DNA of 39,847 nucleotides from a virus, in IMG/VR virus record IMGVR_UViG_3300019888_000010, positions 1-39,847 of that record; one strand, written 5' to 3'. This document shows positions 18,448 to 38,050 of the stretch, piece after piece (the stretch's first letter is position 1; every line of letters begins with the position of its first letter). The translations under genes were made by a program, and so were the position numbers. The notes beneath the pieces are model-generated. The model saw only the letters and a program-made list of their open reading frames with translations, searched no databases and had not been told where the DNA came from.

Positions 18448-18768
18448 TCACAGTAGACAAGGGTCGTCAAGGATAGACAAGGCTAGACGCCGCTTTGCCC
18501 CAAGATGCCCACCTTCCGACGCATTACAACGTGAGCACGCCGGCTGGATGTTTTCCCGCACGTACCGGCCGCCCTCGCACCCCGGAACGATCCGGTCCGC
18601 CGTCACCGTGTCGACGGTGAGGATGCGCAGGCACCCCTCAGCCGTCCCCAGACAGCACAGGACGGTGACGCCGTTACCCCACTCGGCCACCAGCCACTCA
18701 CGCCGCTTACGGCGGTCGGACGACGAACCGCGAGCGTTGCGGTTCGTCGTCCCCCTCTTCACCGTCAC
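18448..18768 (-). CDS. HNH endonuclease
   Basis: This encodes 106 residues from a GTG overlapping the helicase stop (GTGA). The segment 'DTVTADRIVPGCEGGRYVRENIQPACSRCNASEGG' (residues about 53-87) is the HNH core: D-R-I/V-P-G, then N-I-Q-P-A-C-x-x-C-N. The start 'RGTTNRNARGSSSDRRKRREWL' is typical of actinophage HNH proteins. A Cys pair upstream ('CCLGTAEGC') may be a worn zinc site. Free-standing phage HNH proteins act in DNA nicking or packaging or are mobile; here it lies far from the terminase. The last codons overlap the 10-bp-repeat array. Confidence 0.8.
   Translation of the reverse strand: MTVKRGTTNRNARGSSSDRRKRREWLVAEWGNGVTVLCCLGTAEGCLRILTVDTVTADRIVPGCEGGRYVRENIQPACSRCNASEGGHLGAKRRLALSILDDPCLL
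18453..18486 (-). promoter_or_regulatory. 10-bp direct-repeat array A (- orientation)
   Basis: On the - strand three tandem units CTAGCCTTGT, CTATCCTTGA, CGACCCTTGT are followed by CTAC. The array lies 53 bases before the ATG at 18400 and overlaps the 3' end of the HNH gene. TTGTCT and TCTACT boxes 17 bp apart within it could act as -35 and -10 elements, but the repeat could equally be an operator. Confidence 0.7.
18718..18752 (-). terminator. Strong hairpin inside the 5' end of the HNH gene
   Basis: A perfect 14-bp stem (18718-18731 with 18739-18752) with a 7-nt loop lies 16-50 bases inside the HNH reading frame, just after the helicase stop. It may terminate part of the helicase transcripts and so limit HNH expression, or be an RNA processing site. 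A protein-coding coincidence is possible, since the Arg-rich start of this family is variable. Confidence 0.45.
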
Positions 18769-20420
18769 CGCTTGGCCACCTTGTCCAGGAACCGGCTGGC
18801 GATGTGGATGCTGATTTGGTCGCTCAGCTCACCTCGCGTCTGCCCGTTCATCTCGATGTTGTACCGGGCCGCCATCCCCAGCTGGGCGTCCGACGGCTTG
18901 CGGGACTTGGCCCGCCAGCTGGACGACTTGCTGGACACCGACGGGTCGATCTCCTGGGCTTCCTGCTCGCCCCAACTCATCGCCATCTCGACCCCCAGCC
19001 CCTTGTGCAGCCAGGTCCCGCCGACCGTCGAGTACGGGCCGCACTTGCCTACGTCGTACGTCCCGTCCGTGCGGGGCCAGAGGAAGATCGTGGCGCCCTT
19101 GACCGGCACGAACCACTTACCGCCGTACGTTCGCAGCCAGACGCTGGGCGATGATTCGAACAGCTGGACCTCCACCCCAGCCCGATCACCCTCGATGCGC
19201 TCCCGGGCGCCCTCCAGGATCGTGATGGCTTCCTCTTCCCGGGCCAGAGCCTCCATGAGGCTCTCGCCGGGCAGGGGCTTGGTCTCGGTGACGGTGAGGT
19301 CCGCGATGGTCGCCAGGGGCAGCCTGCCGGCCACGCCGACAACGTCCAGCACCAGCGCGCCGGTCTTCCCGGACCACGGCGCCGGCCGCAGCACGCGTCC
19401 GACCATCTGGACGTAGAGGGCGGCGTTGGTAGTCGGCCGGGCGATGATCGCGACCTCGACCTCTGGCAGATCGAAACCCTCCGTCAGCACCATGCACGAC
19501 GCGATGATCTTCGTCTCCCCAGCCCGTACCCGCTTGTAGATCAGCTGGCGGTCTTCGGTTGGGGTGTCGCCCGTGACCACCTCGGTGACGATGCCGGCCT
19601 CGTTGAGATCATCGGTGAACGCGATGGCGGACGCGACCGACGGGGCGAACAGGATGCCGGGCCGGGGAATGGCGTTGTCGTGGTGGCCGTCGTCAATGCT
19701 GGCGTGCTCCCAGTACGCGTCGGCGATCTCTTTGCCGGCGCCGGACGCGACCATCGCATCCCCGAGCTTGCCCTCCTGGTAGTCGCCATGACTGCGGGCG
19801 ACGGTGGCCAGGTCCAGGCCGTCAACGGTGACCCGGATGCCGCGCACGTCGCTCAGGTGCCCGTGCGCGATGCCGTACGTGATGTCCTTGCGGTAGGCGA
19901 TCTTCTCCCAGACCCGGCCCAGCTGCTTCTCGTCGGCCCGGCTCATGGTGGCGGTGAAACCGACGGCGCGCGTGGTCAGGAAGGGGTTCATCACCCCGAA
20001 CCACTCCAGGGTGTCGACGTAGCTCTTGGCGCTGGCGTGGTGGCACTCATCGACGATGATCAGGTCGTACGTGTCGGCCGGGATCACCATCCGGCGCTGC
20101 GATCGGCCGAGAGTCTGGACGCTGGCCACCACCACATCGGCGTACGGCTGATTCAGCTCTGCCTTGATGACCCCCGTCAGCGCGCCGGGGGCGGCCGCCT
20201 CGACCTTGGCCAGCGTCTGGCGGACGAGCTCGTCACGGTGGACGAGGATGAGGGTGCGGTGCCCGGCGGCGTGCTCTCGGGCAACCATGTCGGCGAAGAT
20301 CACCGTCTTGCCCATGCCGGTCGGTAGGACGACGGCCGGCCGGCGAACGTCGTCAGCCCACGCCTTGTTGACGGCGTCGACTGCTCCGGTCTGGTAGTCG
20401 CGTAGGGCGAGGGTTTTCAC
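18765..20420 (-). CDS. SF2 DEAD/DEAH-type DNA helicase
   Basis: This encodes 551 residues. Motifs are clear: Q-type start 'LRDYQTGAVDAV', Walker A 'PTGMGKT' (33-39), DEAH-box variant 'DECHH' (124-128), motif III 'FTATMS' (155-160) and motif VI 'QMVGRVLRP' (338-346). This places it with the UvrB/RecG/XPB-like helicases found in many phages. It probably remodels forks or recombination intermediates. Residues beyond about 400 form an extra domain of unknown role. The start at 20420 follows a 10-bp-repeat array by about 50 bases, and the stop overlaps the HNH start. Confidence 0.88.
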   Translation of the reverse strand: MKTLALRDYQTGAVDAVNKAWADDVRRPAVVLPTGMGKTVIFADMVAREHAAGHRTLILVHRDELVRQTLAKVEAAAPGALTGVIKAELNQPYADVVVASVQTLGRSQRRMVIPADTYDLIIVDECHHASAKSYVDTLEWFGVMNPFLTTRAVGFTATMSRADEKQLGRVWEKIAYRKDITYGIAHGHLSDVRGIRVTVDGLDLATVARSHGDYQEGKLGDAMVASGAGKEIADAYWEHASIDDGHHDNAIPRPGILFAPSVASAIAFTDDLNEAGIVTEVVTGDTPTEDRQLIYKRVRAGETKIIASCMVLTEGFDLPEVEVAIIARPTTNAALYVQMVGRVLRPAPWSGKTGALVLDVVGVAGRLPLATIADLTVTETKPLPGESLMEALAREEEAITILEGARERIEGDRAGVEVQLFESSPSVWLRTYGGKWFVPVKGATIFLWPRTDGTYDVGKCGPYSTVGGTWLHKGLGVEMAMSWGEQEAQEIDPSVSSKSSSWRAKSRKPSDAQLGMAARYNIEMNGQTRGELSDQISIHIASRFLDKVAKR

Positions 20421-20464
20421 TGGGTGTCTCCTGGGTGACGGGGAAACGCTTGCGAGCGGAGCCT

Positions 20465-20494
20465 ATCGGACTAGTCAAGGATAGACAAGGGTAG
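20465..20494 (-). promoter_or_regulatory. 10-bp direct-repeat array B (- orientation)
   Basis: On the - strand two good units CTACCCTTGT and CTATCCTTGA are followed by a worn third (CTAGTCCGAT). It lies between a strong terminator and the helicase start at 20420. TTGTCT followed 17 bp later by TAGGCT fits a -35/-10 pair. The order terminator, array, gene argues that the array is a promoter region. Confidence 0.72.
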
Positions 20495-20501
20495 ACAGAG
20501 A

Positions 20502-20533
20502 AATGACCCCATATCCGAAGACATGGGGTCATT
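20502..20533 (-). terminator. Terminator after the 103-residue gene
   Basis: A perfect 11-bp stem (20502-20512 with 20523-20533) with a 10-nt loop, followed on the - strand by a short T-rich stretch. It lies 20 bases after the stop at 20554. Confidence 0.75.
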
Positions 20534-20553
20534 ATCCTGATTATCTGAATCGA

Positions 20554-20865
20554 TCAATGAGGCATGGCACTCATCGCTGCGATCTCTCGGTAGTTGATCG
20601 ACTGAACCTGTGACCGGAGCGACCCCATCACGTCGCCCTTGGCGTACCGCGCCACCATCACAGCCTCACACAGCTCGGCCATCTCGATACGCCATGCCGC
20701 CGGACCCTGTTGCTCAATCTCGTCAACGATCAGGACGCAGCAGGCGCACTCGCACTCGAATCCGGTGCCCTTGTGCGGGCCGTGGGTGGGGGTTTGCATG
20801 CAGGTGCACGTGTACTCAGTGACCTGGAGCGTGATCGGGAACAGGACCTGTTGGGCTGAGCGCAT
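20554..20865 (-). CDS. Hypothetical Cys-rich small protein
   Basis: This encodes 103 residues; the ATG overlaps the stop of the upstream gene (TGATG). The stretch 'YTCTCMQTPTHGPHKGTGFECECACC' (residues about 18-43) has six Cys and two His and may bind metal. The rest is helical ('AAWRIEMAELCEAVMVARYAKGDVMGSLRSQVQ'). No family is recognised. It forms a two-gene unit with the preceding gene, closed by the terminator at 20502-20533. Confidence 0.6.
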   Translation of the reverse strand: MRSAQQVLFPITLQVTEYTCTCMQTPTHGPHKGTGFECECACCVLIVDEIEQQGPAAWRIEMAELCEAVMVARYAKGDVMGSLRSQVQSINYREIAAMSAMPH

Positions 20866-21194
20866 CACGCCACCGCCGGATCGAACACGAAACCGGAGTC
20901 CGAGACCGGCATCCCGTCCGGCGTCTTTGGGGTGAAGGCGGCCAGGTCGTCACCCTTGTCGGTGAACAGGTCCACCACCTGCATCACCGCCGTCCCGCCC
21001 CGTAGGGCGATGTTGCGGGCCATGATCTCGGCCTCAGCGGTGTCCCGCTGGCGGTAGAGGGTGAACCGGCCGGTCGCCGGCCGGGCGAAGTCCCGCAGCC
21101 ACTGGTTGGCGGCGTTCAGGTGGACGGTGAAGGGGTAGGCGTAGACCACACGCAAGATCACTCCGGGGGCGACGGCGGCGCTAGATTTGGCCAT
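20865..21194 (-). CDS. Hypothetical early protein
   Basis: This encodes 109 residues from the ATG at 21194, chosen because AGAAAGG precedes it; the open frame before it covers the promoter region. Strands ('VILRVVYAYPFTVHLNAANQWL', 'RFTLYRQRDTAEAEIMARNIALRGGTAVMQVVDLF') dominate. No family is recognised. It is the first gene after array C and is divergent from the HTH gene, so it may be the first leftward early gene. Confidence 0.62.
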   Translation of the reverse strand: MAKSSAAVAPGVILRVVYAYPFTVHLNAANQWLRDFARPATGRFTLYRQRDTAEAEIMARNIALRGGTAVMQVVDLFTDKGDDLAAFTPKTPDGMPVSDSGFVFDPAVA

Positions 21195-21246
21195 GACGGG
21201 CCTTTCTGAGGACGTTTCGGGGACGAGGAACACGCTCGCAGACTCG

Positions 21247-21266
21247 CCAAGGATAGTCAAGGGTAG
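21247..21266 (-). promoter_or_regulatory. 10-bp direct-repeat array C in the divergent control region (- orientation)
   Basis: On the - strand CTACCCTTGA and CTATCCTTGG are in tandem, flanked by weaker copies. The array sits between the leftward gene starting at 21194 and the rightward HTH gene starting at 21291. It may serve both directions; for the HTH gene a -10-like TATGGT at 21278-21283 is only 7 bases from the ATG, which would give a leaderless mRNA. Confidence 0.65.
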
Positions 21267-21290
21267 ACAAAATCGGGTATGGTCAGCCGC

Positions 21291-21494
21291 ATGGACAACA
21301 CCTTGTACGCCACCAGAGCAGAGGCCGCTACGTTCCTGGGCGTTTCGCTGCGGACCATCGACCGCTACATCGAGGATGGCACCCTGACCGCCTTCCGAAT
21401 CAGGGGCATCCAGTCGGTGCGGGTCAAGGTCGCTGACCTTGACAACATCCTGGAGCGCAAAGCCGCCAAGAACGCCGACGTGGGAGCACAGTAA
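21291..21494 (+). CDS. HTH DNA-binding protein, excisionase/MerR-like
   Basis: This encodes 67 residues. 'YATRAEAATFLGVSLRTIDRYIEDGTLTAFRIRGIQSVRVKVADLDNIL' (residues 6-54) is the winged helix of the excisionase/MerR-like family (HTH_17). An in-frame ATG at 21279 would add four residues but has no better ribosome site; the 21291 start would suit a leaderless transcript. No integrase is present, so it is more likely a transcription regulator than an excisionase. It lies beside array C, which makes it the best candidate to read the 10-bp repeats. A strong terminator follows. Confidence 0.82.
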   Translation: MDNTLYATRAEAATFLGVSLRTIDRYIEDGTLTAFRIRGIQSVRVKVADLDNILERKAAKNADVGAQ

Positions 21495-21526
21495 AGAGAC
21501 CGGACGCTTGATAGCGTCCGGTCTCT
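21495..21526 (+). terminator. Strong terminator after the HTH gene
   Basis: A perfect 13-bp stem (21495-21507 with 21514-21526) with a 6-nt loop begins directly after the stop codon. It isolates the regulator from the polymerase gene, which starts at 21594; a smaller hairpin near 21538-21556 follows. Confidence 0.78.
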
Positions 21527-21593
21527 CGACAACCCCCGAGGTAGTCCCCTTACCTCACCGTTTCCCGTCACAGAAACATGAGGCAACACTAGC

Positions 21594-23483
21594 ATGCCTA
21601 CGTTCCCCGCCCTGGTCAGAGCAACGACCACTGTTGACCCTCCGTGCGTACCCGCTGTCACAGGTACCCACCACATCGCACCGCTGCGGGCCGACTACAC
21701 CGCCGGCGATTACGACACCGTCCGGCAGGCCTGCCGCCCGTTGCTCGCCGACGGCCAGCCGGTCGCCGTCGACATCGAGACGTTCGGGCTGGGGTCGGAC
21801 GCGCGCCGGCTGAAGTGCGTCGCGCTCGCCGACAAGAACCAAGCCGTCGTCCTGGACCCGCGTGAGGAGGGGCACGCGTTCCTGCTGCGCCGATTCTTCG
21901 CCCAGGCCCCCCGCCTGATCTTCCACAACAGCCCGTTCGACGTGCCCAACCTGCACGTCAACGGCCTGTTCGACCTGGACTGGTGCGCCAAGATCACCGA
22001 CACGTTGATCTACGCCCGGCTGGCCTATCCCGCCATCACCGTCCGCAAGACCCTGGAGGCCCTGTCGGCCCGGCACCTGGGCATCGACACCAAGGTCACC
22101 ATCGAGAAAATCTTCCGGATGCTCGGCCTGACCAAGACCGAAGGTTTCCGGCGGATGGACATCGACACCCCGATCTACCTGATGAGCAACGCCGCTGACG
22201 CCGTCGCCACCGCCCGGCTGCTCCCGTTCGTCCGACAGGCCGCGTACGACAAGCTCACCACCGGCCACCCGTTCACCGCCATGGGCGTATCCGGCGACGA
22301 GGCCTGGCGGTTGGTGGAGCGCGAGCAGCGCATCAACCGGATGATGCTGCGCCGGGCGTGCGTCGGGCTGAAGGTTGACTTTGATTTTCTTGACCAGTAC
22401 CGCGAGACGAACAACGCCGACCGATACGCCGCTGAAGCGGGATTGACCGAGGCGGGAGTGCGGCCGGGGAACGCGGGTGACCTGATCACCGCGTTACAGC
22501 AACGCGACGCGCTTCCCCCCAGCCACCCGCTGACGCCGGGCGGCAAGGACGGCAAGAACAAGAAACCCTCCACCAAGGCCGAGCACCTGGAGCTTCTGTC
22601 CGACCCGATCGCCCAACTTTTCGTGCGGGCAAAGGAAATAGCCAAGATTGAGGACGACTACCTCCAGAAAGTGATCGACCTGGAGACCGGTGGCCGCATT
22701 CATCCGGTGCTGAAGCTGTTGGCCGCCACCCACGGGCGCGCGTCGATGGCCGATCCGCCGGTCCAACAGTTCCCTGAGCTGGCACGCGGCATCGTGCTGT
22801 TCGACGAGGACCACACGTCGTTGGACTGGAAGCAGATTGAGCCAGTGTTCGGGGCCAACGTCGCCCAGGACTCCGCCGTGTTGGGCGGGTACGACTCGGG
22901 AATGAGCGACCTGTATGACGACGTTGCCCGGCTGGCCGTGGTGCCACGCAAGGTCGCCAAGGTGATCGTGCTGGCGTTGATGTACGGCGAAGGCCTGGAC
23001 AAGATGGCCGCCGCCCTGGGACTGGACTACGAGGGCGCCAAGGCACTGCGGGGCAAGGTGTGGCGGGCGATGCCGAAAACCACTCAGCTGTTGTTTCGGC
23101 TGAAGGATATCGCCGGCAATCACGGGATGGTGTTCACCATGGCCGGCCGCATCGTGGATGTCCCGATGGGGCCGGGGTTCAAGGACAAGGACACCGGACT
23201 GGTCGGGCCGCCCACCCGGCAGACGCACAAGGGACCCAACTATTTCTGCTGCGGTGGGGCCTACGATATTTTGGCTGAAACATTGATAAGTATCGACGAG
23301 GCAGGGCTTGGTGACGCTGTTTCTATTACCATGCACGACGAAATTGTGTGCGCAACGTCGGCCGCACACGACATCGACAAGATAATGCAGACCCCACCGG
23401 AGCGTTTTTGCTTGCTGGCAAAGAGAACTCCGGTGCTGCGTACCGACAGGGCTGACCTAGGCACAAGGTGGGACGTCGCATGA
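21594..23483 (+). CDS. DNA polymerase, family A (PolA-like) with 3'-5' exonuclease domain
   Basis: This encodes 629 residues. The exonuclease domain shows 'DIETFG' (D60, E62) and 'FHNSPFD'. The polymerase domain shows motif A 'SLDWKQIEPVF' (D411), motif B R452-x3-K456-x7-Y464-G and motif C 'MHDEIV' (H581, D582, E583). Motif A has Trp where most PolA enzymes have Tyr/Phe-Ser. There is no 5'-3' exonuclease domain, as usual in phage enzymes. It replicates the phage genome. A GAGGC site precedes the ATG. It overlaps the next gene by 4 bases. Confidence 0.92.
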   Translation: MPTFPALVRATTTVDPPCVPAVTGTHHIAPLRADYTAGDYDTVRQACRPLLADGQPVAVDIETFGLGSDARRLKCVALADKNQAVVLDPREEGHAFLLRRFFAQAPRLIFHNSPFDVPNLHVNGLFDLDWCAKITDTLIYARLAYPAITVRKTLEALSARHLGIDTKVTIEKIFRMLGLTKTEGFRRMDIDTPIYLMSNAADAVATARLLPFVRQAAYDKLTTGHPFTAMGVSGDEAWRLVEREQRINRMMLRRACVGLKVDFDFLDQYRETNNADRYAAEAGLTEAGVRPGNAGDLITALQQRDALPPSHPLTPGGKDGKNKKPSTKAEHLELLSDPIAQLFVRAKEIAKIEDDYLQKVIDLETGGRIHPVLKLLAATHGRASMADPPVQQFPELARGIVLFDEDHTSLDWKQIEPVFGANVAQDSAVLGGYDSGMSDLYDDVARLAVVPRKVAKVIVLALMYGEGLDKMAAALGLDYEGAKALRGKVWRAMPKTTQLLFRLKDIAGNHGMVFTMAGRIVDVPMGPGFKDKDTGLVGPPTRQTHKGPNYFCCGGAYDILAETLISIDEAGLGDAVSITMHDEIVCATSAAHDIDKIMQTPPERFCLLAKRTPVLRTDRADLGTRWDVA

Positions 23484-23659: not shown

Positions 23660-26016
23660 TGGGCACCGAGGCTTTCCGCAGCATTTTCGGTTCAGTCCCC
23701 GCCGGGGACGAGGAATCCACGGTCCGGATCGTGCTGGGCGGCGTCCGCGCTGGATTCTCCGTCGTCCTGGTCAAGCCCGGTCTCAAATCGCCCATGTGCA
23801 CGCTGTCCGCCCAGCAAGCAAAGGCGGCCGACACGGCCGCCCGAGAACAGGCGTTGGCCGAGGGACGCCCCCGGCCCGGTAAGGCGCGTCACTACTGCGG
23901 GATCGGGCACGCCCTGTTCCTGACCGGCGACCCGGAGCTGAAGGCCAAAGAGGAAGGCGCGATCACCCGTACGGTCCGCCGGGTGTTGAAGCAGTCCGGC
24001 GGGGCGGTCAACCTGGGGGTCGAGCTCGGCCGTAGCCGGATGGTGGTCGTTGATGTGGACACCGCCGAAGAGAACGCCGCGTTCCTGGCCGACCGAATCG
24101 ACGCGGAGGGCCCGGAAGCCGCCCGCCAGACGTACACCGTGCAGTCCCCCGGCGCCCGTAACGCCGCTGGGGAGCTGGTGCACTCCGATGGCGGCCACTA
24201 CTGGTTTACCGTCCCGGAGGGCGTCACGCTGCCGGACGGGGCCGACGGGGCCCTGAAGACGCCCACCGGCTGGACGGTGATGTGGAACAACCGCCAGGTC
24301 CTCGTCCCGCCGTCGTCCCGCCCGGAAGGCCCGTACCGGATGGTGGGGGCCGCATCCCCGGCCCCGGCCTGGATCACCGACCTGATCACCGCCGGGGCGG
24401 CCGCCAAGCTGGACCGCAAGGTCAGCCAGGCGGACAGGATTTTCGACATCGATGACCCGATCGACCGTTGGTCGGCTGAAACGCCCTGGTCAGAGCTTCT
24501 CGACCCGGACGACTGGACGGACACCGGCCTGGTCGACAACTGCTCTTGCCCGATCTGGACGGCCCCGGGCGACCACTCCTCTCCCAAGTCCGCGACCGCG
24601 CATGAGCTGGGTTGTTCGATCTGGGACTCGTCGACCGGCTGGGCCCCGCTGCGGGTGTGGACGGACTCGCCGCCGTCCTGGCTGACGGGCGCCGGCCGCA
24701 ACATCACCAAGCTGCGCTACGTGGCCCTACGGGATCACGACGGCGTTGACCGGCTGGCGATGAGCGCGCTGGGGCTGCTGTCCGGTGGGGTGCTGGATGA
24801 CCAGTTCCCCGGTTTCACGGACACCGCCTTTGACATCCGGCAACCCTCTGACCAGCAGAGGGACAAGAATCCGGACACGAGGGACAAGAATCCGGACAAC
24901 GTCCCCGCTGTTGTCCGTGACCCGTTCGCCGCCGCATCAGAAGAGGAGGATGGCGACGAAACGGACGATTCTCCCCCAGCCCTGGACGACGTTGACCAGC
25001 TCATAGCCAGGATGCGCTCCAGCGCTCAGCTGGACGACATCCAGGACCCTGAACCGCTGGTAGCGGGGATGCTGGACCTGGACAGCCTCACCCGGATGAC
25101 GGGTAAGTCCGGGCACGGCAAGACGTTCGTCATGATCGACTTGTCGTGCTGCGTCGCCACCGGTCGCCCCTGGCACGGGCATGAGGTCACTGAGGGGATG
25201 GTGGTCTACATGGTGGCTGAGGGCATCAGGGGCTACAAAAAGCGCGTTCGTGCCTGGGAAGCTCGGTACAACGAGGGTGAGCGCATCCCCCCAGACCGCC
25301 TACTGATCTACGGCGAGCCCATCCAGGTCACGGACTCCGCCGGTTGGGCCAACTGGATAGCCGCCATGAAGCGGCTGGGGGCGACTCTGGTGGTGATGGA
25401 CACACAGGCCCGGATCACCGTTGGTGTGGAAGAGAACTCCGCAACCGACATGGGAAAGGTCATCCACCAGATGGACCGCATCAAACTGGCCACCAAGGCC
25501 TGTGTGTGCGTGGTCCACCACCTCGGCCACCAGGGGGAACAGGGAAGAGGGTCCAGCGCCATGCTGGGCGCCCTGGAGACGGAGATACGGGTCAGCAAGG
25601 TGGGCGCCAAGGTGACGGTGGTCAACGAGAAACAGAAGGATGCCGAGAGCTTCGAGACCATCGAGCTGACCTTGAACCCGGAAGGGACCAGCGCCGTCCT
25701 GGAGTCCCCGGCCCGCGAGGACCCGTGGGTGACGCCGCTGGTGGACGCTCACTCGCATCCGCTGGATCGGATGCTGCGGCTGATGTTCGAAACGATGCCG
25801 ATGCTCGGTGCGACCGAGGCGGCAGCTCGGAAGCTGATCAGGACCAGCGACAAGGACAAGGACGGCCGGCCGATGATCGACCGGATGTTCTCGCGCTGTT
25901 TCGACAAGGCGGCCGGGTGTGGGGACCTCATCAAGGTGGAGGGGTCACAGCGGTGGAAAGTGAGCGCCAACGCCATTGAACGGTTGGCTCTTCGTCCCCC
26001 TCAGAATGAGGCATGA
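23656..26016 (+). CDS. Bifunctional primase-polymerase / replicative helicase
   Basis: This encodes 786 residues. The N-terminal region (about 30-230) resembles the archaeo-eukaryotic-type Prim-Pol domain: 'VNLGVELGRSRMVVVDVDT' with D133 and D135, then 'GGHYWFTVP' with H181. A linker (about 395-445) has two copies of RDKNPD. The C-terminal part is a RepA/AAA_25-like ATPase: Walker A 'GKSGHGKT' (483-490), Walker B 'TLVVMDTQA' (D582), and 'VVHHLGHQGEQGRGSSAMLGA' (H621, H622). A winged-helix-like end follows. It would prime and unwind DNA for the phage polymerase. The repeat-rich segment just after it is a candidate origin. Confidence 0.85.
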   Translation: MMGTEAFRSIFGSVPAGDEESTVRIVLGGVRAGFSVVLVKPGLKSPMCTLSAQQAKAADTAAREQALAEGRPRPGKARHYCGIGHALFLTGDPELKAKEEGAITRTVRRVLKQSGGAVNLGVELGRSRMVVVDVDTAEENAAFLADRIDAEGPEAARQTYTVQSPGARNAAGELVHSDGGHYWFTVPEGVTLPDGADGALKTPTGWTVMWNNRQVLVPPSSRPEGPYRMVGAASPAPAWITDLITAGAAAKLDRKVSQADRIFDIDDPIDRWSAETPWSELLDPDDWTDTGLVDNCSCPIWTAPGDHSSPKSATAHELGCSIWDSSTGWAPLRVWTDSPPSWLTGAGRNITKLRYVALRDHDGVDRLAMSALGLLSGGVLDDQFPGFTDTAFDIRQPSDQQRDKNPDTRDKNPDNVPAVVRDPFAAASEEEDGDETDDSPPALDDVDQLIARMRSSAQLDDIQDPEPLVAGMLDLDSLTRMTGKSGHGKTFVMIDLSCCVATGRPWHGHEVTEGMVVYMVAEGIRGYKKRVRAWEARYNEGERIPPDRLLIYGEPIQVTDSAGWANWIAAMKRLGATLVVMDTQARITVGVEENSATDMGKVIHQMDRIKLATKACVCVVHHLGHQGEQGRGSSAMLGALETEIRVSKVGAKVTVVNEKQKDAESFETIELTLNPEGTSAVLESPAREDPWVTPLVDAHSHPLDRMLRLMFETMPMLGATEAAARKLIRTSDKDKDGRPMIDRMFSRCFDKAAGCGDLIKVEGSQRWKVSANAIERLALRPPQNEA
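24859..24898 (+). repeat. 21-bp direct repeat in the primase-helicase linker
   Basis: Two copies of a 19-bp identical core (24859-24877 and 24880-24898) with a period of 21 bp encode RDKNPDT and RDKNPDN. Each copy carries GGGACA and CGGACA, the same GGACA motif that fills the segment after the gene. Confidence 0.8.
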
Positions 26017-26029
26017 CAGCGGTGCGAAA

Positions 26030-26248
26030 TGTCCGAAAGGTTGTCCTTATCCCGTCCAAATCTTGTCCGGATGTTGTCCATAGCCATTTGGCTATGGACA
26101 ACGTGTCCGAAAATTGGGACACGTCTGACCTGCGAAAAGGACAAGCACGGACAGGAGACGGACAGAGGGACAAAAGGCAGGGACATGTCCGTCTCTAGGG
26201 AGACGGACAGGGCCATGTCAGCCGACCATCCGGACAAGGATCTGGACA
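26030..26248 (+). repeat. Phased TGTCC / GGACA iteron-like array (candidate origin or control site)
   Basis: The 268-base segment between the primase-helicase stop (26016) and the next ATG (26285) has no convincing gene. TGTCC or CGTCC starts at 26030, 26042, 26053, 26064 and 26075 (spacing 12, 11, 11, 11). Then comes a 13-bp hairpin, and then GGACA starts at 26096, 26117, 26139, 26149, 26160, 26168, 26181, 26205, 26232 and 26244, many at multiples of about 10-11 bp. A few TGTCC copies also lie in the right part. The arrangement resembles an iteron origin, a partition site or a dense operator. Confidence 0.75.
26073..26102. other. 13-bp hairpin at the centre of the iteron-like array
   Basis: A perfect 13-bp stem (26073-26085 with 26090-26102) with loop ATTT lies where the motif orientation flips. 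It could be a cruciform element of an origin, or a terminator for the replication operon; there is no T-run. Confidence 0.7.
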
Positions 26249-26284
26249 AGGTTTTTCAAGATCAACTACAGGGAGAAAACGATC

Positions 26285-26503: not shown

Positions 26504-26507
26504 GTGT

Positions 26508-26541
26508 CTAGCCTTGACTATCCTTGTCTAGCGTTGTCTAC
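26508..26541 (+). promoter_or_regulatory. 10-bp direct-repeat array D (+ orientation)
   Basis: Three tandem units CTAGCCTTGA, CTATCCTTGT, CTAGCGTTGT are followed by CTAC. It lies 44 bases before the ATG at 26586. TTGACT and TCTACT, 17 bp apart within the array, could be -35 and -10 boxes. Confidence 0.72.
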
Positions 26542-26585
26542 TGGATGGGCACCGAATACAGCTTCAAACCAGGAGGAACCCGGAC

Positions 26586-26720
26586 ATGTTGAACCTTTGG
26601 ATCGAATGCCCCGACTGCGGCCACGAGGACGAGGTTGAGGCGGAGGTCATCGGTTCGGTGGTCATCACCACGTGCCCGAGCTGCGGCCTGGATGAGCAGT
26701 TCGAGGCCAGCTACGCCTGA
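26586..26720 (+). CDS. 44-residue zinc-ribbon protein
   Basis: The ATG follows a perfect AGGAGG. The peptide has two CxxCG knuckles ('CPDCG' at 9-13 and 'CPSCG' at 30-34), a textbook zinc ribbon. Its function is unknown; small zinc ribbons of this kind in phages often touch host transcription or DNA-binding proteins. It is the first gene after array D, with a strong hairpin after the stop, so it can be expressed strongly and on its own. Confidence 0.7.
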   Translation: MLNLWIECPDCGHEDEVEAEVIGSVVITTCPSCGLDEQFEASYA

Positions 26721-27577: not shown

Positions 27578-27595
27578 AACGTCGTGATATTGTGT

Positions 27596-27629
27596 CTATC
27601 GATGTCGATCCTTGTCTGTCCTTGTCTAC
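27596..27629 (+). promoter_or_regulatory. 10-bp direct-repeat array E (+ orientation) before the terminase block
   Basis: Units CTATCGATGT (worn), CGATCCTTGT and CTGTCCTTGT are followed by CTAC. It lies 23 bases before the ATG at 27653, closer than the other arrays. TAGGAG follows directly, so a transcript starting within or just after the array would have a short leader. Confidence 0.7.
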
Positions 27630-27652
27630 CCGAATGAGCTTAGGAGTTGATC

Positions 27653-28162
27653 ATGGCCGGTAAACCATTAACCAAACCACGGCTAGAATTGACACCTGAG
27701 CAACGCGCTGTTCAGACCGCCAAAGTGCTGGAGCTGAAGCTCGCCGGATGGCGTCAGGACCAGATCGCCACCGAGCTGGGACTGTCCGAGCAGGTCGTCT
27801 CCGTGCGCATCAAGGCAGCGCTCAACGCGATGGTTCAGCCGGCGTCCGAAGAGCTTCGTAAGGAAGAGATCGCCCGGCTGGACAAGTACCTGAAGGCGCT
27901 GGACGACCAGATCGAGAACGGCGCGCTGACGCATGATCAGCGGGGCAACGAGTACGTCGACGAGTCCAAGCGTGCTCAGGCGATCGCGACGGCCGTACGG
28001 GTCGCTGAGCGCCGGGCGAAGCTGCTCGGTATCGACATGCCCAGCCAGCTGGAAGTCAAGCACGAGCACGTGGGCAGCATCGAGGCTGAGATCGCCAAGC
28101 TGGCGGCCGAGCTGGCGATGGACGTCACTGCCAGTGACGAGAGTGAGAAGGAAGATGCTTAA
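27653..28162 (+). CDS. Putative small terminase subunit (HTH DNA-binding)
   Basis: This encodes 169 residues; TAGGAG sits well before the ATG. Residues about 10-50 ('LTPEQRAVQTAKVLELKLAGWRQDQIATELGLSEQVVSVRIKAAL') form a helix-turn-helix. A helical middle follows ('LDKYLKALDDQIENGALTHDQRG...RAQAIATAVRVAERRAKLLGIDMP'), which is typical of small terminases, and then an acidic C-terminus. It would recognise phage DNA and start packaging. The large terminase is 2 kb downstream on the same strand with only very small genes between. A general HTH regulator is the alternative. Confidence 0.65.
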   Translation: MAGKPLTKPRLELTPEQRAVQTAKVLELKLAGWRQDQIATELGLSEQVVSVRIKAALNAMVQPASEELRKEEIARLDKYLKALDDQIENGALTHDQRGNEYVDESKRAQAIATAVRVAERRAKLLGIDMPSQLEVKHEHVGSIEAEIAKLAAELAMDVTASDESEKEDA

Positions 28163-31505: not shown

Positions 31506-33722
31506 GTGCCGGAATATGTAGTCACCGACCGGCGCCACTCAGCCGGCCCAGCCGAACGACGTGACCCGACCGTCGCGACCACCAACACCGTGTTCGTCAG
31601 CCCCGGCCGCCCGGGAGTCACTGACTGGAACGCCGAACGGGCCATCAAGTTTGGCTACATGTCTCAAATCTATGTCTATCGGTGCGTCCAGAAGATCGCG
31701 ACGGACATCGCCAGCCTGCCCTTTCGAGTAGGGGCGGACCCGGACTCGCCCAGCGACTTCAACAAGAAAGCGCCATTGGCGCGGATGCTCGGCCCGATGC
31801 CCGGCAAACCCAACCCGCAGATCACCGCCAAGACCCTGATTCAGCACTCCGTCGCGATGTACCTGGTCACCGGCCGATGGGCCTGGGAAGCGGATCGGGG
31901 CGGCGACAACTCCCGCACCAGCGGCCCGCCGCTGGCGTTCTGGCCGTTGCCGGTCTGGCTGCTGGAGCCCAACCCAACCAACGGCGGCAACGAGTATTTC
32001 GACGGATTCACCTACTACCGGCGGGGCCGGATGGGGGCCGGAGACGGCAGCACCATGGTGAAGCTGCGCAACGACCAGGTCGTGTACGCCTGGAAGCCCA
32101 GCCTGCTGGACCCCCGCCAGCCCGAGAGCGTGCTGGAGGCGGCAAGGCTCAACGTCGACGTGGCCAGCATGCTGGATCAGTACAGCTCCGCGTTCCTGCG
32201 CAACAACGCCACCCCGGCCACCGCCGTCGTCACCGAAGCGTGGCGCACCCAGGACGACCGAGACCAGTTCCAGGCCCAGTTCAACGGGGCGTACGGCGGC
32301 GTACGCAACGCCGGCCGCACCGCGTTCCTGGAGGCCAACGGGGACGGTGAAAAAGGCGTCACCGGCATGTTCGACATCAAGCCGTTGGGCCTCACCCAGC
32401 GTGACGCCCAGTTCAACGAACAAATGCGTCAGAAGATCAGCGACATCTGCGTTGCTTTTGGTGTACCGCTTAGCAAACTCGGCGACGCGTCCGGCCGCAC
32501 ATTCTCCAATGCCGACCAGGAAGACGAGAACTACTGGCGGGATCTGCTGCCGATCATCGGAGACATGCAGGATCACATCAACCTCAACGTGGCACCGCAG
32601 TACAGCCCGTCTGATGTCGGATGGTTCGACCTTTCGAATGTGAAGGCACTGAAGCCGCACCGCAATCTGCTGCCGCTTTCCGTTGCAGAGGCCAAAAACA
32701 ACGACCTTATTACCCTGGAGGAAGCCAGGGAATACATCGGTGTCATTGGAAAGAACCCGGACATCACAGCGGACGACGAGGCACGCGCGCAATTCGCCAG
32801 CGTCGGGCTGTCCAGGCTGGCGGCGGCCATACCGGCGCTGGTGGCGGCCAAGATCATCAGCGAGAAAGACGCGCACGACTTCCTCGGCCTGCCGGGCGTG
32901 GTCCCGGACAAGCCAGCCACCCCGGCGCCTATCCCCGCAGTGTTCGGCCACCCGATCCCGCCAGCCGACCCGTTGGCGCTCAACGCACCGGACCCGAAGC
33001 CGGCGCTACCGGCCGGCGCGCCCGCAGTGGACGCCAACAATCAGGCCAACGACACCGCCAACCGTGCCGCACCCATCTCCCCGGCCCCCGCCGGCGCGTC
33101 CAGTGCTGACGAGGACTGGGCGGTCAGCTTCCTACGCCGCACGTACGAACAGCAGACCCGCCGGTTGCTGACCAAGCAAGCGGACAGCGTCAAGCGCTGG
33201 CTGTCCGGCAAGCGCGGTGCTCAGCTGGTCGCCCGAGCCGAGACCGAGCGCGTCACGATCTACGACGGGGCGTTCTGGGCCGACGAGACGCGCACCTGGG
33301 CCGCCGACATGTACGCGACCGCCATCGACGTGGCGGGCCGGGGGCTGGGGGCGACGGAACGGGCCACCGAAGCGGCCGCCAACTTCATCACCGTCCGTTC
33401 CACCATGCTTGCGATCGCGGTCACAAACGAGGTGGCCGCCACCGCCCGCAGCGCCTACCTGGCCGCCGTCGGCGACGCGTTCGACCACACCGAGGTGGTG
33501 GACGCCGTAGATGACGCGCTGCGGCAGTACATCGACGCGGCCAGCGTGTCGATAGCCGATCGTGAGGCCCGACTGGCGTACGACGGGGCACGTGAGGTGC
33601 TGGTCAGACACGACGCGGCGGCGTTCCAGCTGATTTTGGCGCAGCTGGCGGAGGGTGACATCGACATCAACGCGGCGTTGGCCGCACTGGGAGCCCAGGG
33701 GGCCACCGATGACCAGGATTGA
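31506..33722 (+). CDS. Portal protein with long C-terminal extension
   Basis: This encodes 738 residues from the GTG at 31506, chosen because AGGGGG precedes it and the upstream frame overlaps the terminase. Residues about 45-460 are an HK97-type portal ('YMSQIYVYRCVQKIATDIASLPFRVG', 'LTQRDAQFNEQMRQKISDICVAFGVPLSKLGD'). This dodecamer is the DNA entry channel. After a Pro/Ala linker (about 480-540), a helical domain of about 190 residues ('VSFLRRTYEQQTRRLL...AYLAAVGDAFDHTEV') extends the protein well past the usual 400-550 residues; it may be a fused head-morphogenesis-type domain. It overlaps the protease gene by 14 bases. Confidence 0.9.
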   Translation: MPEYVVTDRRHSAGPAERRDPTVATTNTVFVSPGRPGVTDWNAERAIKFGYMSQIYVYRCVQKIATDIASLPFRVGADPDSPSDFNKKAPLARMLGPMPGKPNPQITAKTLIQHSVAMYLVTGRWAWEADRGGDNSRTSGPPLAFWPLPVWLLEPNPTNGGNEYFDGFTYYRRGRMGAGDGSTMVKLRNDQVVYAWKPSLLDPRQPESVLEAARLNVDVASMLDQYSSAFLRNNATPATAVVTEAWRTQDDRDQFQAQFNGAYGGVRNAGRTAFLEANGDGEKGVTGMFDIKPLGLTQRDAQFNEQMRQKISDICVAFGVPLSKLGDASGRTFSNADQEDENYWRDLLPIIGDMQDHINLNVAPQYSPSDVGWFDLSNVKALKPHRNLLPLSVAEAKNNDLITLEEAREYIGVIGKNPDITADDEARAQFASVGLSRLAAAIPALVAAKIISEKDAHDFLGLPGVVPDKPATPAPIPAVFGHPIPPADPLALNAPDPKPALPAGAPAVDANNQANDTANRAAPISPAPAGASSADEDWAVSFLRRTYEQQTRRLLTKQADSVKRWLSGKRGAQLVARAETERVTIYDGAFWADETRTWAADMYATAIDVAGRGLGATERATEAAANFITVRSTMLAIAVTNEVAATARSAYLAAVGDAFDHTEVVDAVDDALRQYIDAASVSIADREARLAYDGAREVLVRHDAAAFQLILAQLAEGDIDINAALAALGAQGATDDQD

Positions 33723-34863
33723 ACGACGGGCACTCGCCGGCAAACCGGACGCCAGTGCGTTGGACGAGGAAAAGCGGCAGTTCACCGCCAGGGTGGTCAA
33801 CTACGGCGTCGTAGATTCCTACGGCAGCGTCTGGCAGGCAGGCTGCTTTACCCGCAGCCTCCAGCGCAAGCTGCCCAAGGTCACCTGGGGCCACGACTGG
33901 CTGGACCCGATCGGGGTTGTCATCGGCTACGAAGAGCGCGCCGACGGGCTGGACCTCACCGTCCAGCTTGATGACTTTGACGCCGTCCCACGAGCTCGGC
34001 AGGCGTACGCCCAGCTGAAGTCCGGGTCGATGGACGAGTTCAGCTTTGGGTTTCAGCGGCAGGAGTGGACGGAGAAGCGTGAGGATCTGGCCAAGTACGA
34101 CGGGCAGGAACACCGCGCCGTCGAGCTTATGACCGAGGCCCGGATGGACGAGATGAGCCCGGTCCTGGTCGGGGCCGTGCCGGGCACAAAGACCCTGTCC
34201 GTTCGGTCAGACAAAGACCACTCTTCGGTGGTGGATGTCCTGACCGCCGTATCCCGATCCGAGATGCGCGTACAGGACGCGCTGCGGGCGCTCACCAGCT
34301 CGGTGCCGGACGAGGACGCCGTCGACGCACCGGACGGCGCGATGGTGGCGTTGCTGCCGGACGCGGCTACAGCGACCTACCTGTCCGGGCTGAAGGCACG
34401 CGGCACCAAACCGGCCGACCTGCACCTGTCCCTCACCTACATGGGTAAGGCGGCTGACGTTGACGAGGCCGAGCGCACCAACGTCATCGGGGCCGTCACC
34501 AGCTGGGCGGCCGTCAACGGGCCGGTGAGCGCTCTGGTGGCCGGCACGGCGTACCTGGGACCGGACGCCGCCCGGGTGCTGCTGGTCGAGTCGACGAACC
34601 TCGTAGGCGTGTTCATGGACGTGGCCGAGATGGCGCCGGCCGGGGAACACCACCCGACGTTCATCCCACACATCACGCTGGGGATGAGCGGCCCCCTGCC
34701 GTTGCCGGACGATGACCATGAGCTGGTGTTCGACCGGGTGATGGTGGCGTTCGGGACCGCCCAAACGATCATCGAGTTGGTGGGGCCGGCTGGGGGTCTG
34801 GACGCCGATGACCTGGACGACATGATCAGCGACGCGATGAGCGTCCTCGACTACGGATGGTGA
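33709..34863 (+). CDS. Prohead protease fused to a 2H phosphoesterase-like domain
   Basis: This encodes 384 residues from the ATG at 33709 (CAGGGGG upstream). The N-terminal domain is an HK97-type serine protease: 'FTRSLQRKLPKVTWGHDW' with H62, then 'LKSGSMDEFSFGF' with S112, then 'DEMSPVLVGAVPGT'. It matures the capsid by cleaving the N-terminus of the capsid protein. Residues about 215-370 show the two motifs of 2H phosphoesterases: 'HLSLTY' at H239 and 'HITLGM' at H321, 82 residues apart, as expected for the LigT/2'-5' RNA ligase-like fold. The fused domain may act on RNA ends or cyclic nucleotides, or be structural. Confidence 0.85.
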   Translation: MTRIERRALAGKPDASALDEEKRQFTARVVNYGVVDSYGSVWQAGCFTRSLQRKLPKVTWGHDWLDPIGVVIGYEERADGLDLTVQLDDFDAVPRARQAYAQLKSGSMDEFSFGFQRQEWTEKREDLAKYDGQEHRAVELMTEARMDEMSPVLVGAVPGTKTLSVRSDKDHSSVVDVLTAVSRSEMRVQDALRALTSSVPDEDAVDAPDGAMVALLPDAATATYLSGLKARGTKPADLHLSLTYMGKAADVDEAERTNVIGAVTSWAAVNGPVSALVAGTAYLGPDAARVLLVESTNLVGVFMDVAEMAPAGEHHPTFIPHITLGMSGPLPLPDDDHELVFDRVMVAFGTAQTIIELVGPAGGLDADDLDDMISDAMSVLDYGW

Positions 34864-34866
34864 GCA

Positions 34867-35130
34867 ATGTCTGAGGTATACCACCAAATCAGCGAGTCGG
34901 TGACGGTGGACAACGTCACTGGCGACATCTCTGGGTGTGCGGTCTATCCGCCTTCCGGTGTGAACACCTTATGTCTAGGGGGTGGATGGAACTGGGCGCC
35001 GAACACCAATGACCCCATCGATCCACCTCGGGTGTATCAGGACGGTCCGGCTGGTGGTGCTTGGCAAGTGATGTTCATCGCCAATCAGACCGGCTCCATG
35101 AATGTCTACGCCACTTTTGTGGAGGTATAA
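34867..35130 (+). CDS. Small hypothetical beta-rich protein
   Basis: This encodes 87 residues. No Cys motif or catalytic pattern stands out; the protein is rich in Gly, Asn and aromatic residues ('LCLGGGWNWAPNTNDPIDPPRVYQDGPAGGAWQVMFIANQ'), as in small virion surface proteins. The codon use is slightly less GC-rich than in the flanking protease. GGAGG near its end serves as ribosome site for the next gene. No family is recognised; a virion decoration role is inferred from position. Confidence 0.55.
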   Translation: MSEVYHQISESVTVDNVTGDISGCAVYPPSGVNTLCLGGGWNWAPNTNDPIDPPRVYQDGPAGGAWQVMFIANQTGSMNVYATFVEV

Positions 35131-35133
35131 GCC

Positions 35134-35676
35134 ATGTCTATAGTCGCCACCGACATACTTTTCAAGTATAGTGTGAAAACTGGATCGGCTGGCAATACTT
35201 TGCCGCAGGCAGACAAAAACCAGAGTCTTGGTAAGTACGTCTCCACCACGACCGCCGCAGCCGGCACCAACGGGCTGTTCGACGATGTCTCCGGCGACGA
35301 GAACGCCGCCAGCACTGTCGACTACCGGTGTCTGTTCGTGCTGAACAACCACGCCACGCTCGACCTGGTGAACGCCGTCGTCTACATGTCGGCGGAGGTG
35401 TCCGGCGGGACATCCATCTCCATCGCGACGGACAACGCCGCCGTGTCGGTGAAGGGCGCGTCCGCAGCACAGGCTGACCTGATCGCCACCGAGCTGGTGG
35501 CGCCGACGGTGGTTAGTGCCTTCAGCTCCCCGACCACCAAGGCCGCTGGGCTGGCCCTGGGCACCATCCCCGCAGGGTCGGTCAAGGCGTTCTGGGTGAA
35601 GCGTACGGCCGCCAACACGGTGGCCTTGAACGCCGACGGCGTCACGTTCGCTGTCGCTGGCGACACGGCCGCATAG
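35134..35676 (+). CDS. Putative minor virion structural protein
   Basis: This encodes 180 residues; GGAGGTATAAGCC precedes the ATG. 'LFKYSVKTGSAGNT', 'SLGKYVSTTTAAAGTNGLFDDVSGDENAASTVDYRCLFVLNNHATLDLVNAVVYMSAE' and 'IPAGSVKAFWVKRTAANT' are of a type often found among phage decoration, neck-fibre or tail-fibre genes. The fold is likely a beta sandwich. It precedes the long repeat protein and may be the base that attaches it to the head or neck. Confidence 0.65.
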   Translation: MSIVATDILFKYSVKTGSAGNTLPQADKNQSLGKYVSTTTAAAGTNGLFDDVSGDENAASTVDYRCLFVLNNHATLDLVNAVVYMSAEVSGGTSISIATDNAAVSVKGASAAQADLIATELVAPTVVSAFSSPTTKAAGLALGTIPAGSVKAFWVKRTAANTVALNADGVTFAVAGDTAA

Positions 35677-35685
35677 GGCCCGCTG

Positions 35686-37635
35686 GTGGTCACCAAGGCC
35701 AACTCGGGCGCCGGCACCATCGGCGCCGCTGTCACCGCCGCCGGTTCGTCCAGCGGCGGTGACGCCTTCAGCTTCGTGACCACCAGTTTCACCAGCCCTG
35801 GCTCATCGCTGACATACAACTCCAGTGACGGGCTCTCCATCACCTACACGTTCGGTACCGGCACGGCTCAATCGATCATCACCCGGTACGACGGTCTGTG
35901 GTTCACCACCGCTGGCGACCCAGGCGGGCTGGCTCAATACATGTCGGCCGGCGTCTACTGCCCCAGCCGGTCCGGGCCGCCGCTGGTGATGGGGATGTTG
36001 AATCAGTCGGCCGGCACGTACGCGGCGCTGCAAATCAACGCGGACAGCACCGTGTCCATCATGTGTATCCCCGTGTCCGGGCTGGCGGCCGTCGTCACCA
36101 GCACCGTGACGGTGCCCACCGGGGCGTTTTTCACGGTGGACTGGTATATCAAGTTTTCCTCCACCACGTCCGGTGAGGCACGGCTGAGGCTGTTCGTCAC
36201 GTATCCGGACCGGTCCGGGCCACCGGACGAGGACATCCTGACGACCAGCATCATCACTTCGCTGTCCACCAACCGACCTCGTTACCACTACTGGGGCGAC
36301 GGTAGAGGCCTGCTAAGCAACCAGATCGCCACGTACAACATGAAGATCAACGACGTTGGGTTCCCCACCAACGTCGTCACCTCCACTTTGGCGCAGAGCT
36401 GGAAAGTTCTGGCTCCAGTCAGCCAGACGCTGGCCGAATCGTGGAACGTGAGCGCTCCCGTCGCCCAGACGTTGTCTGAAATTTGGGCGGTCAAGGCTCC
36501 AGTATCCCAGTCACTGGTGGAAAACTGGGCAGTTAAAGCTCCTGTTTCCCAGTCATTGTCTGAAACATGGAATGTGAATACTCCTGTTTCTCAGTCACTG
36601 GTGGAAAACTGGGCAGTTAAAGCTCTTGTTTCCCAGTCATTGGCCGAAACATGGAACGTTAATGCTCCAGTTTCCCAGTCACTGAGCGAAACATGGAACG
36701 TAAACGCTGCTATTTCCCAATCATTGGCCGAGACATGGAACGTATACACCGCCCTTTCCCAGTCATTGTCAGAGACATGGAACGTGAATGCTCCAGTTTC
36801 CCAGTCCCTGGCTGAAACTTGGAACGTATACGCTGCTCTTTCTCAGTCGCTGGTCGAGACATGGAACGTCAACGCACCAGTTTCCCAGTCATTGAGCCAA
36901 ACATGGAACGTCAACGCCCTGGTGGCCAGCACACTGGCCCAGGCCTGGGCTGTCCGGGTCGCCGTCGCGCCCTCGACGCTGGATGAGACGTGGGCAGTCC
37001 GCCAGGGCGTCCTCGAGGGTTTGGTCCAGAGCTGGGCAGTGTCCGCACTGGTGGCAAATACCCTGGCCTCGAGTTGGGCTGTCGCCGCTACCGTGCTGGC
37101 CCAGCTGGACGAGACCTGGGACGTGCTGGTCAACGGTCAGGTCGAGTCCTCGTACGCCACCAGCTGGAACGTGGCGGCCGCCGCCGGCGCGACGCTGAGC
37201 GAAACGTGGGACGTCCGGCTGGCCGTCGCCACCTCTCTGGCCGAGACCTGGGCCGTACGGTCGCTGGCCACCTCGACGCTGGACGAGACATGGGACGTGA
37301 GGTCGCTGGCGGCCGCCTCACTGGTCACGTCATGGGCCGTCCGAGCCTTGGCGGTCGCTGAGCTGGTCGAACGCTGGAATGTGGCGGCCGGGGGCGAGGT
37401 CACACCGGTCATGGTCGAGCTCGCCCAGGCATGGGCCGTACGAGCCCTGGTGCTGCGGACGCTGGCCGAGAGCTGGAACGTCGACGGACCGGCGGCCGTA
37501 CGCGCGCCGGGCAACAACGGCGTCACGTTCCTGGACGACCTGAACTTCGCGACGGCAATGAGCGGCAACAGCGCCCCAGCCGGCGCCGGCTCGAACAACG
37601 CCAGGGCAACGGACAACGGAAATGAGGCAACCTGA
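35686..37635 (+). CDS. Fibre-like protein: lectin-like N-terminal domain plus about 26 14-residue repeats
   Basis: This encodes 649 residues from a GTG. Residues 1-230 are beta-rich with a concanavalin/LamG-like feel ('LSITYTFGTGTAQSIITRYDGLWFTTAGD', 'FFTVDWYIKFSSTTSGEARLRLFV'). Residues 232-603 are about 26 tandem copies of a 14-residue unit, consensus SQSLAETWNVNAPV, with an invariant Trp. This looks like a repetitive fibre or solenoid that projects from the virion. Units 4-13 are the most alike and less GC-rich than the rest, so they probably expanded recently. A short Gly/Asn/Ala-rich tail follows. The stop overlaps the next ATG. The repeat family is not one I recognise. Confidence 0.75.
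   Translation: MVTKANSGAGTIGAAVTAAGSSSGGDAFSFVTTSFTSPGSSLTYNSSDGLSITYTFGTGTAQSIITRYDGLWFTTAGDPGGLAQYMSAGVYCPSRSGPPLVMGMLNQSAGTYAALQINADSTVSIMCIPVSGLAAVVTSTVTVPTGAFFTVDWYIKFSSTTSGEARLRLFVTYPDRSGPPDEDILTTSIITSLSTNRPRYHYWGDGRGLLSNQIATYNMKINDVGFPTNVVTSTLAQSWKVLAPVSQTLAESWNVSAPVAQTLSEIWAVKAPVSQSLVENWAVKAPVSQSLSETWNVNTPVSQSLVENWAVKALVSQSLAETWNVNAPVSQSLSETWNVNAAISQSLAETWNVYTALSQSLSETWNVNAPVSQSLAETWNVYAALSQSLVETWNVNAPVSQSLSQTWNVNALVASTLAQAWAVRVAVAPSTLDETWAVRQGVLEGLVQSWAVSALVANTLASSWAVAATVLAQLDETWDVLVNGQVESSYATSWNVAAAAGATLSETWDVRLAVATSLAETWAVRSLATSTLDETWDVRSLAAASLVTSWAVRALAVAELVERWNVAAGGEVTPVMVELAQAWAVRALVLRTLAESWNVDGPAAVRAPGNNGVTFLDDLNFATAMSGNSAPAGAGSNNARATDNGNEAT
36379..37494 (+). repeat. 42-bp coding repeat array (about 26 units)
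   Basis: The period is 42 bp (14 codons), broken only by a few units with 1-6 extra or missing codons near 36950, 37130 and 37400. DNA identity is high in units 4-13 (about 36500-36925) and low in the GC-rich second half. Confidence 0.88.
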
Positions 37636-37964
37636 TGAGCTACACCTACGTCCGGCCGGGGGACGAACGTCCCACCGTCCAGGCAGTGCTGAGTGACGCG
37701 GCCGGCCAGCCGGTGGACCTCACCGGAGCGACGGTGGAGTTGAAGCTGCGGGGTGCCACCGTGCGGTTCCTGGCGGCCCAGTGGCCAGCGTCGGTGGTGG
37801 ACGCGGCCGGGGGCAAGGTGGAGCTGGTGTGGGGAGATGCGGTTCAGACGCCGACGGCGGCCGGACTGTATTTCGCGCACTGGCTGGTGACGTACTCGGG
37901 AGGGGACAACGAGACGTTCCCGAACGGGAGCAACGGCAGCGTCATCGAGCTGATCTCTGACTGA
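37635..37964 (+). CDS. BppU-N-terminal-like baseplate/fibre adaptor protein
   Basis: This encodes 109 residues; the ATG overlaps the repeat protein stop (TGATG). 'PGDERPTVQAVLSDAAGQPVDLTGATVELKLRG' followed by 'GGKVELVWGDAVQTPTAAGLYFAHWLVTYSGGDNETFPNG' is the pattern of the N-terminal domain of BppU-type upper baseplate proteins, which attach fibres to virions. As a free-standing domain it could fasten the repeat protein. A strong terminator follows. Confidence 0.72.
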   Translation: MSYTYVRPGDERPTVQAVLSDAAGQPVDLTGATVELKLRGATVRFLAAQWPASVVDAAGGKVELVWGDAVQTPTAAGLYFAHWLVTYSGGDNETFPNGSNGSVIELISD

Positions 37965-37977
37965 TTCGCCCTGGGTG

Positions 37978-38011
37978 CTCGCTATCATCGAGCTAGCTCG
38001 ATGATAGCGAG
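37978..38011 (+). terminator. Strong palindromic terminator after the fibre genes
   Basis: A perfect 17-bp inverted repeat (37978-37994 with 37995-38011; 15 pairs if a CTAG loop is allowed) starts 14 bases after the stop at 37964. 10-bp-repeat array F begins six bases after it. Confidence 0.8.
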
Positions 38012-38016
38012 AATGT

Positions 38017-38050
38017 CTAGCCTTGTCAAGCCTTGGCTATCCTTGTCTAC
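38017..38050 (+). promoter_or_regulatory. 10-bp direct-repeat array F (+ orientation)
   Basis: Units CTAGCCTTGT, CAAGCCTTGG and CTATCCTTGT are followed by CTAC. It directly follows the palindromic terminator and lies 69 bases before the ATG at 38120. TTGGCT and CATACT, 18 bp apart, form one possible -35/-10 pair reaching just past the array. Confidence 0.75.

Follow-up and report, generated by a model that had tools for sequence, protein, structure and literature searches.

The 39,847-nucleotide stretch of viral DNA analysed here (IMG/VR record IMGVR_UViG_3300019888_000010; hereafter the window) carries six arrays of a 10-bp direct repeat that are, as judged from sequence, phased to candidate core promoters, with the -35 hexamer itself as one of the repeat units. 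We propose, with a probability of roughly 0.55, that a small winged helix-turn-helix (HTH) protein encoded beside one of the arrays nucleates filaments on them and so acts as regulator of the promoters, with occlusion of RNA polymerase as the most likely mechanism.

Results

Six arrays of a 10-bp direct repeat

A sequence-only reading of the window had placed six oriented arrays on its two strands, and their places and strands are correct (Table 1). With one mismatch allowed, the consensus proposed there, CTAKCCTTGW, is matched 16 times in the window, compared with 2.95 +/- 1.57 times in shuffled sequences. A pair scan with a position weight matrix (PWM), trained on the same units that it scanned for, returned exactly six arrays at a lag of 10, none at lags 5-9 and 11-19, and none in 100 dinucleotide shuffles. 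When no matrix is used, the window holds six TG[TA]C triples at lag 10 versus 0.08 in shuffles, and zero at the control lags 7, 8, 11, 13, 14, 16 and 17. These comparisons exclude chance, whether or not the trained matrix is used.

While the 10-bp tandem organization stands, the register of the unit had to be moved: the conserved register is TTGWCTANCC, in which T2, G3 and C5 are invariant in 21/21 array units of the window. It gives 3, 3, 3, 4, 4 and 4 units for A1 to A6, instead of the two to three per array originally counted. Four of the arrays end in CTAC, as had been noted, and the location of all six upstream of a start codon, oriented like the gene, is borne out by measured distances of about 23-69 bases. 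A1 overlaps the last codons of an HNH gene, the other five being intergenic. Two arrays had been described as following strong terminators: the element before A2 is a strong, terminator-like hairpin, and that before A6 a palindrome devoid of a T run. On the minus strand, a promoter-like element (TTGACA-N17-TATCAT, 11/12) is present at 38029-38001, its -35 lying within unit 2 of A6 and its -10 within that palindrome.

Table 1. Arrays, candidate promoter elements and associated features of the window
Feature	Position	Strand	Description
A1	18451-18490	-	Three units, TTGTCTATCC TTGACGACCC TTGTCTACTG, plus a degenerate unit upstream; faces gene 18020-18400; overlaps 3' end of HNH ORF 18448-18768
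A1 weak -10 candidate	18447-18442	-	GAGACT
DNA helicase	18765-20420	-	Downstream of A2; anchor gene for finding relatives
A2	20469-20498	-	Three units; after the hairpin; candidate promoter of helicase operon
A2 -10 candidate	20465-20460	-	TAGGCT; 17-bp spacer from -35 candidate TTGTCT
Hairpin	20502-20533	-	Strong, terminator-like; just upstream of A2
A3	21241-21270	-	Three units, the third TTGGC; between leftward gene 20865-21194 and divergent HTH gene
A3 weak -10 candidate	21237-21232	-	GAGCGT
HTH gene	21279-21494	+	Candidate array-binding protein; 71-aa winged HTH, HTH_17, excisionase/BldC type
A4	26504-26543	+	Four units; upstream of ORF 26586-26720
A5	27592-27631	+	Four units; upstream of HTH-containing gene 27653-28162 (putatively terminase-small-like)
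A5 weak -10 candidate	27636-27641	+	GAGCTT
Palindrome	37978-38011		Perfect, 34 bp; just upstream of A6; T run absent
A6	38013-38062	+	Four units plus a fifth, TGGC unit (GTGGCATACT); upstream of 38120-38440 and RusA-like resolvase 38463-39005
A6 -10 candidate	within fifth unit	+	CATACT; 18 bp after -35 unit TTGGCT

Phasing of the arrays to core promoters

The relation of the arrays to promoters was analysed in 29 non-identical arrays from nine sequences, which do not represent independent events, since they come in part from closely related phages. A strict -10 hexamer was defined as TAnnnT or SATAST, and its offset was counted from the first base of the last TGWC. Seventeen such hexamers are found in the 29 arrays, nine at +3/+4 and eight at +12/+13, with none at any other offset from 0 to 30 after the last unit; about 12 of the arrays have no strict -10. 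As the hexamers occur in only these two registers, which are one repeat apart, the arrays are in phase with the core promoters and supply the -35 as one of their units, a conclusion that the sequences support well. Within the window, strict hexamers accompany A2 and A6, those of A1, A3 and A5, in matching registers, are weak (nAnnnT), and A4 shows no -10-like hexamer at +12/+13. The layout is clearest in three relatives (G008, G021 and G023), where it reads TTGWCA, unit, TGTCATACT and, 6-8 bases further, ATG. Another unit is found inside the 17-18-bp spacer and, in these three relatives, a third lies over the -10. The earlier suggestion of a phage promoter class that needs an activator is thereby upheld as regards the place of the arrays; its activator part is weighed below as an alternative.

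In G008 (3938-4830, L110), four successive short ORFs of 93, 59, 57 and 54 aa each have their own leaderless array promoter, two of these promoters being near copies.

Arrays in related phages

Relatives of the window were collected through the helicase encoded downstream of A2, which yielded 80 viral sequences with 37-57% identity. At lag 10, the counts of TG[TA]C triples are six in the window, four in G003, nine in G008, two each in G021 and G022, one in L043 (the same contig as G025), three in L046 and one in L049, with zero in all of these at seven control lags; G023 has five at lag 10. The unit differs between phages and the 10-bp period is constant: CCTTGTCGTG/CTAGCCTTGTC in G003, TGTCCAnGTnTGTCATACT in G008, G021 and G023, and TTGACAACTC-TGTCTAG in G022/G025 and L046/L049. 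De novo motif families are clear only for the window, G003, G008 and G021. A start codon lies within 160 bases of the array in 27/27 cases, an uncontrolled figure of little weight. Over all 81 sequences, triple counts are also high at lags 8, 13 and 26, which we put down to the tandem repeats of G012 (L105-L107), where 8-bp and 13-bp repeats are abundant.

No TGWC triples occur in the regions fetched from the isolate phages Trine, KYD2, TPA2, SPI1, EmiRose, Dogfish, Marvin and Yavru, and lag-10 triples were seen in 0/28 of the helicase relatives checked in Streptomyces and other actinobacterial genomes. A search for the exact array pattern in viral contigs led to two unrelated contigs of low GC content, whose repeats lie within coding sequence or close to it. 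A lag scan also detected 10-bp repeats of quite different sequence in relatives such as L019, L025 and L062, which were not counted as members of the group; in L062, 7279-7445 is occupied by three adjacent arrays whose 10-bp repeat is of GGCGCATGC type and differs from TGWC. In the Streptomyces-type relatives L059, L065 and L080, the region upstream of the helicase contains GTCCCTGCA-like repeats, in both orientations and with variable spacing, which were set aside as a separate feature.

A winged HTH protein encoded beside A3

An array between the HTH gene and the helicase operon, directed towards the helicase, is present in the window and in G003, G008, G021, G022, G023 and G025. When all window ORFs were compared, the only families common to the window and these six relatives were the helicase, an exonuclease and the HTH protein, the latter recognised by pairwise phmmer in five of them and by profile in G008. 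Counterparts of the polymerase and the Prim-Pol were not found in G022 and G025, and the HTH-containing protein of 27653-28162 and RusA have counterparts in only three of the array-bearing relatives compared. Both the period of 10 bp and the promoter orientation are thus retained in the relatives, whereas the place of the array is kept, among the six, for A3. On these grounds, the idea of a shared, orientation-bound control system is supported, by period and orientation in the relatives and by the HTH-array-helicase arrangement in the window and the six.

The HTH protein would have 67 aa if its start were ATG 21291; the hexamer TATGGT at 21278-21283 could then serve this leaderless start, with A3 over its -35. 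It matches Pfam HTH_17 (5e-9), and its family profile matches BldC (1e-10), Pukovnik Xis (1e-8) and RdfS (5e-4) in the PDB. A search with the single protein yielded zero relatives. In its AlphaFold model, with a pLDDT of only 79, the top Foldseek matches are again these proteins, the best being 4j2n and 6ama, at E >= 0.003, and structure comparison also points to a resemblance with MerR proteins.

Upstream of 29 HTH genes, that of the window included, divergent-strand TTGWC/NTGTC pairs are found at distance 10 in 15 cases and at 20 in seven, with two at most at any other distance; generic lag autocorrelation in the upstream regions of HTH genes is noisy. Among the 80 helicase relatives, HTH genes occur in 9/10 of those with arrays versus 20/70 of those without (Fisher p 3e-4, uncorrected for kinship). 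The association is not strict, because 20 HTH-bearing relatives have no three-unit array. In the few phages seen, the recognition helix RT[IL]DRY goes with TGTCTA, and RTI[AG]RW with TGTCCA/TGTCAT.

Discussion

In the model that we favour, each array would offer a row of binding sites for a protein, with one site to each helical turn, overlying the -35 region of a sigma-70-type promoter whose -35 hexamer (TTGWC) is one of the units. By analogy with BldC, Xis and Apl, the HTH protein encoded beside A3 would assemble head to tail on these units into a cooperative filament, which would control six transcription units and its own promoter, A3 providing for autoregulation of the HTH gene. A filament formed on an array would then occlude RNA polymerase and so cause repression. 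That the HTH protein binds the arrays is probable and, given such binding, repression by occlusion appears the likeliest outcome, since the units overlap the -35 and the spacer and, at some of the promoters, the -10 as well. Several observations weigh against the model: the site of BldC itself, AATTnnnnC, differs from the array unit; strict -10 hexamers are confined to two of the window arrays, with none in register at A4; and the protein is not always accompanied by an array operator, as the 20 relatives mentioned above illustrate.

A number of known systems share parts of this organization. The excisionase/regulator Apl of phage 186 binds direct repeats one turn apart cooperatively, close to early promoters, and represses pR and pL (PMC7498355). 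Like Apl and the P2-like Cox proteins, the window combines a small HTH protein with repeats one turn apart near promoters (PMC7498355). Unlike Apl, which has two site clusters (att and pR-pL) in an integrase phage, it has six dispersed arrays, a repeat unit that coincides with the -35 and no integrase that we could find. Streptomyces BldC, the closest PDB profile match of the family, is, like the window protein, a single winged HTH of about 70 aa; it forms head-to-tail oligomers on direct repeats, its smeA footprint reaching from -60 to -10 (PMC5859096). It differs in being a cellular developmental regulator with 9-bp repeats and demonstrated binding (PMC5859096). RdfS also forms head-to-tail filaments, with no apparent consensus (PMC11963761), and Xis, in the part of PMC7498355 that cites it, binds one-turn repeats. 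Pukovnik Xis and RdfS, the second and a related profile match, resemble the window protein as small winged HTH proteins (PMC11963761), and differ in working with a tyrosine integrase at attachment sites. The window protein has the single HTH_17/BldC/Xis winged HTH domain of the BldC/excisionase type, and the arrays are one-turn direct repeats, which would be its sites. No match to a partner integrase, tyrosine (PF00589) or serine (PF00239), was found within the window, and an excisionase role of the protein is therefore unlikely. By these analogies, the array system appears to resemble those of Apl, Cox and BldC rather than stoperators.

Stoperators, to which the arrays had originally been likened, are asymmetric sites, occurring singly, at which elongation is stopped by a repressor; in cluster A mycobacteriophages (L5, TipsytheTRex) they are 13-14 bp long, end in TTGTCAAG, number about 20-25 per genome, also at gene ends, and are bound by a monomeric two-domain repressor of about 180 aa (PMC9283540). 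Like these sites (PMC9283540), the window arrays are asymmetric, oriented with transcription and dispersed over the genome, and stoperator consensus sites include TGTC. The stoperator reading is largely refuted, in that the arrays are tandem 10-bp units, each array precedes the start of a gene, in phase with -10 hexamers, and TTGTCAAG is not enriched (twice in the window against 0.49 expected). Among the proteins scanned with Pfam/PHROGs, which represent part of the ORFs, no cluster-A-type repressor was recognised. It is also very improbable that the arrays serve only to strengthen promoters, as duplicated -35 hexamers with no regulator involved. Each unit is indeed -35-like and one of them stands at the -35, but others are found at -45, within the spacer and over the -10, positions in which a -35 would be useless, bases beyond the hexamer (TANCC) are conserved, and the motif varies among phages while the period remains 10.

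The same arrays and the same HTH protein might instead serve activation, the filament bending or unwinding the promoter and so aiding polymerase at weak -10s; the HTH gene, expressed early, would then switch on the other units. Consistent with this are the weakness of most window -10 candidates (GAGACT, GAGCGT, GAGCTT), the position of arrays upstream of replication-type and packaging genes alike, and the resemblance of the fold to MerR proteins, which act from the spacer. MerR promoters, however, typically have a spacer of 19-20 bp, together with a palindromic site, whereas the array promoters have direct repeats and ordinary spacers of 17-18 bp. Moreover, in G008, G021 and G023 the units span -35, spacer and -10, so that a bound filament should exclude polymerase. 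We consider activation less likely than repression, though a serious alternative. Finally, the arrays could be regulator sites in promoters bound by another protein, either an unrecognised phage protein, for which the unannotated small proteins of the window (20554-20868, 20865-21194 and 18020-18400) offer candidates, or a host regulator. This seems quite improbable, given that the HTH protein is the only regulator-like family common to the window and all six array-bearing relatives compared, and that one array always adjoins its gene.

Returning to the HTH filament, a wider and more tentative reading, to which we give slightly less than even odds, is that a filament protein of excisionase-like type has become the phage-wide transcription regulator in a group of uncultured actinophages that apparently lack an integrase, with an operator that includes the -35, promoters that act as nucleation sites, and units that drift while period and phase stay fixed. 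In the open-licence papers searched, no description of such a system was found. What seems new is that a single phage has six such promoters, that the -35 serves as a repeat unit, that no integrase accompanies the system and that the unit sequence drifts at a constant period. If this is true, a whole regulon could be read from sequence alone in phages that have no cultured member, by a signature of TGWC repeats with a 10-bp period phased to the -10. It would also represent an excisionase-type protein freed from recombination and serving as a global regulator. The diverged protein-operator pairs would, in addition, provide natural sets for the study of site choice by BldC/Xis-type proteins, which is poorly understood, as RdfS has no apparent consensus (PMC11963761).

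Additional features of the genome

The ends of the record overlap by about 125 bases (1-125 versus 39722-39847), though it is classed as linear, and the capsid gene crosses the junction of the overlapping ends, for which reasons the actinophage genome is probably complete, at about 39.7 kb. GGACA/TGTCC motifs are abundant within and after the Prim-Pol gene (24840-24930 and 26010-26270); together with the GTCCCTGCA-like repeats of the Streptomyces-type relatives, they possibly point to an origin. Between the resolvase and the capsid gene, a strong stem-loop (39185-39225, -27 kcal/mol), which has no T run, is probably a terminator.
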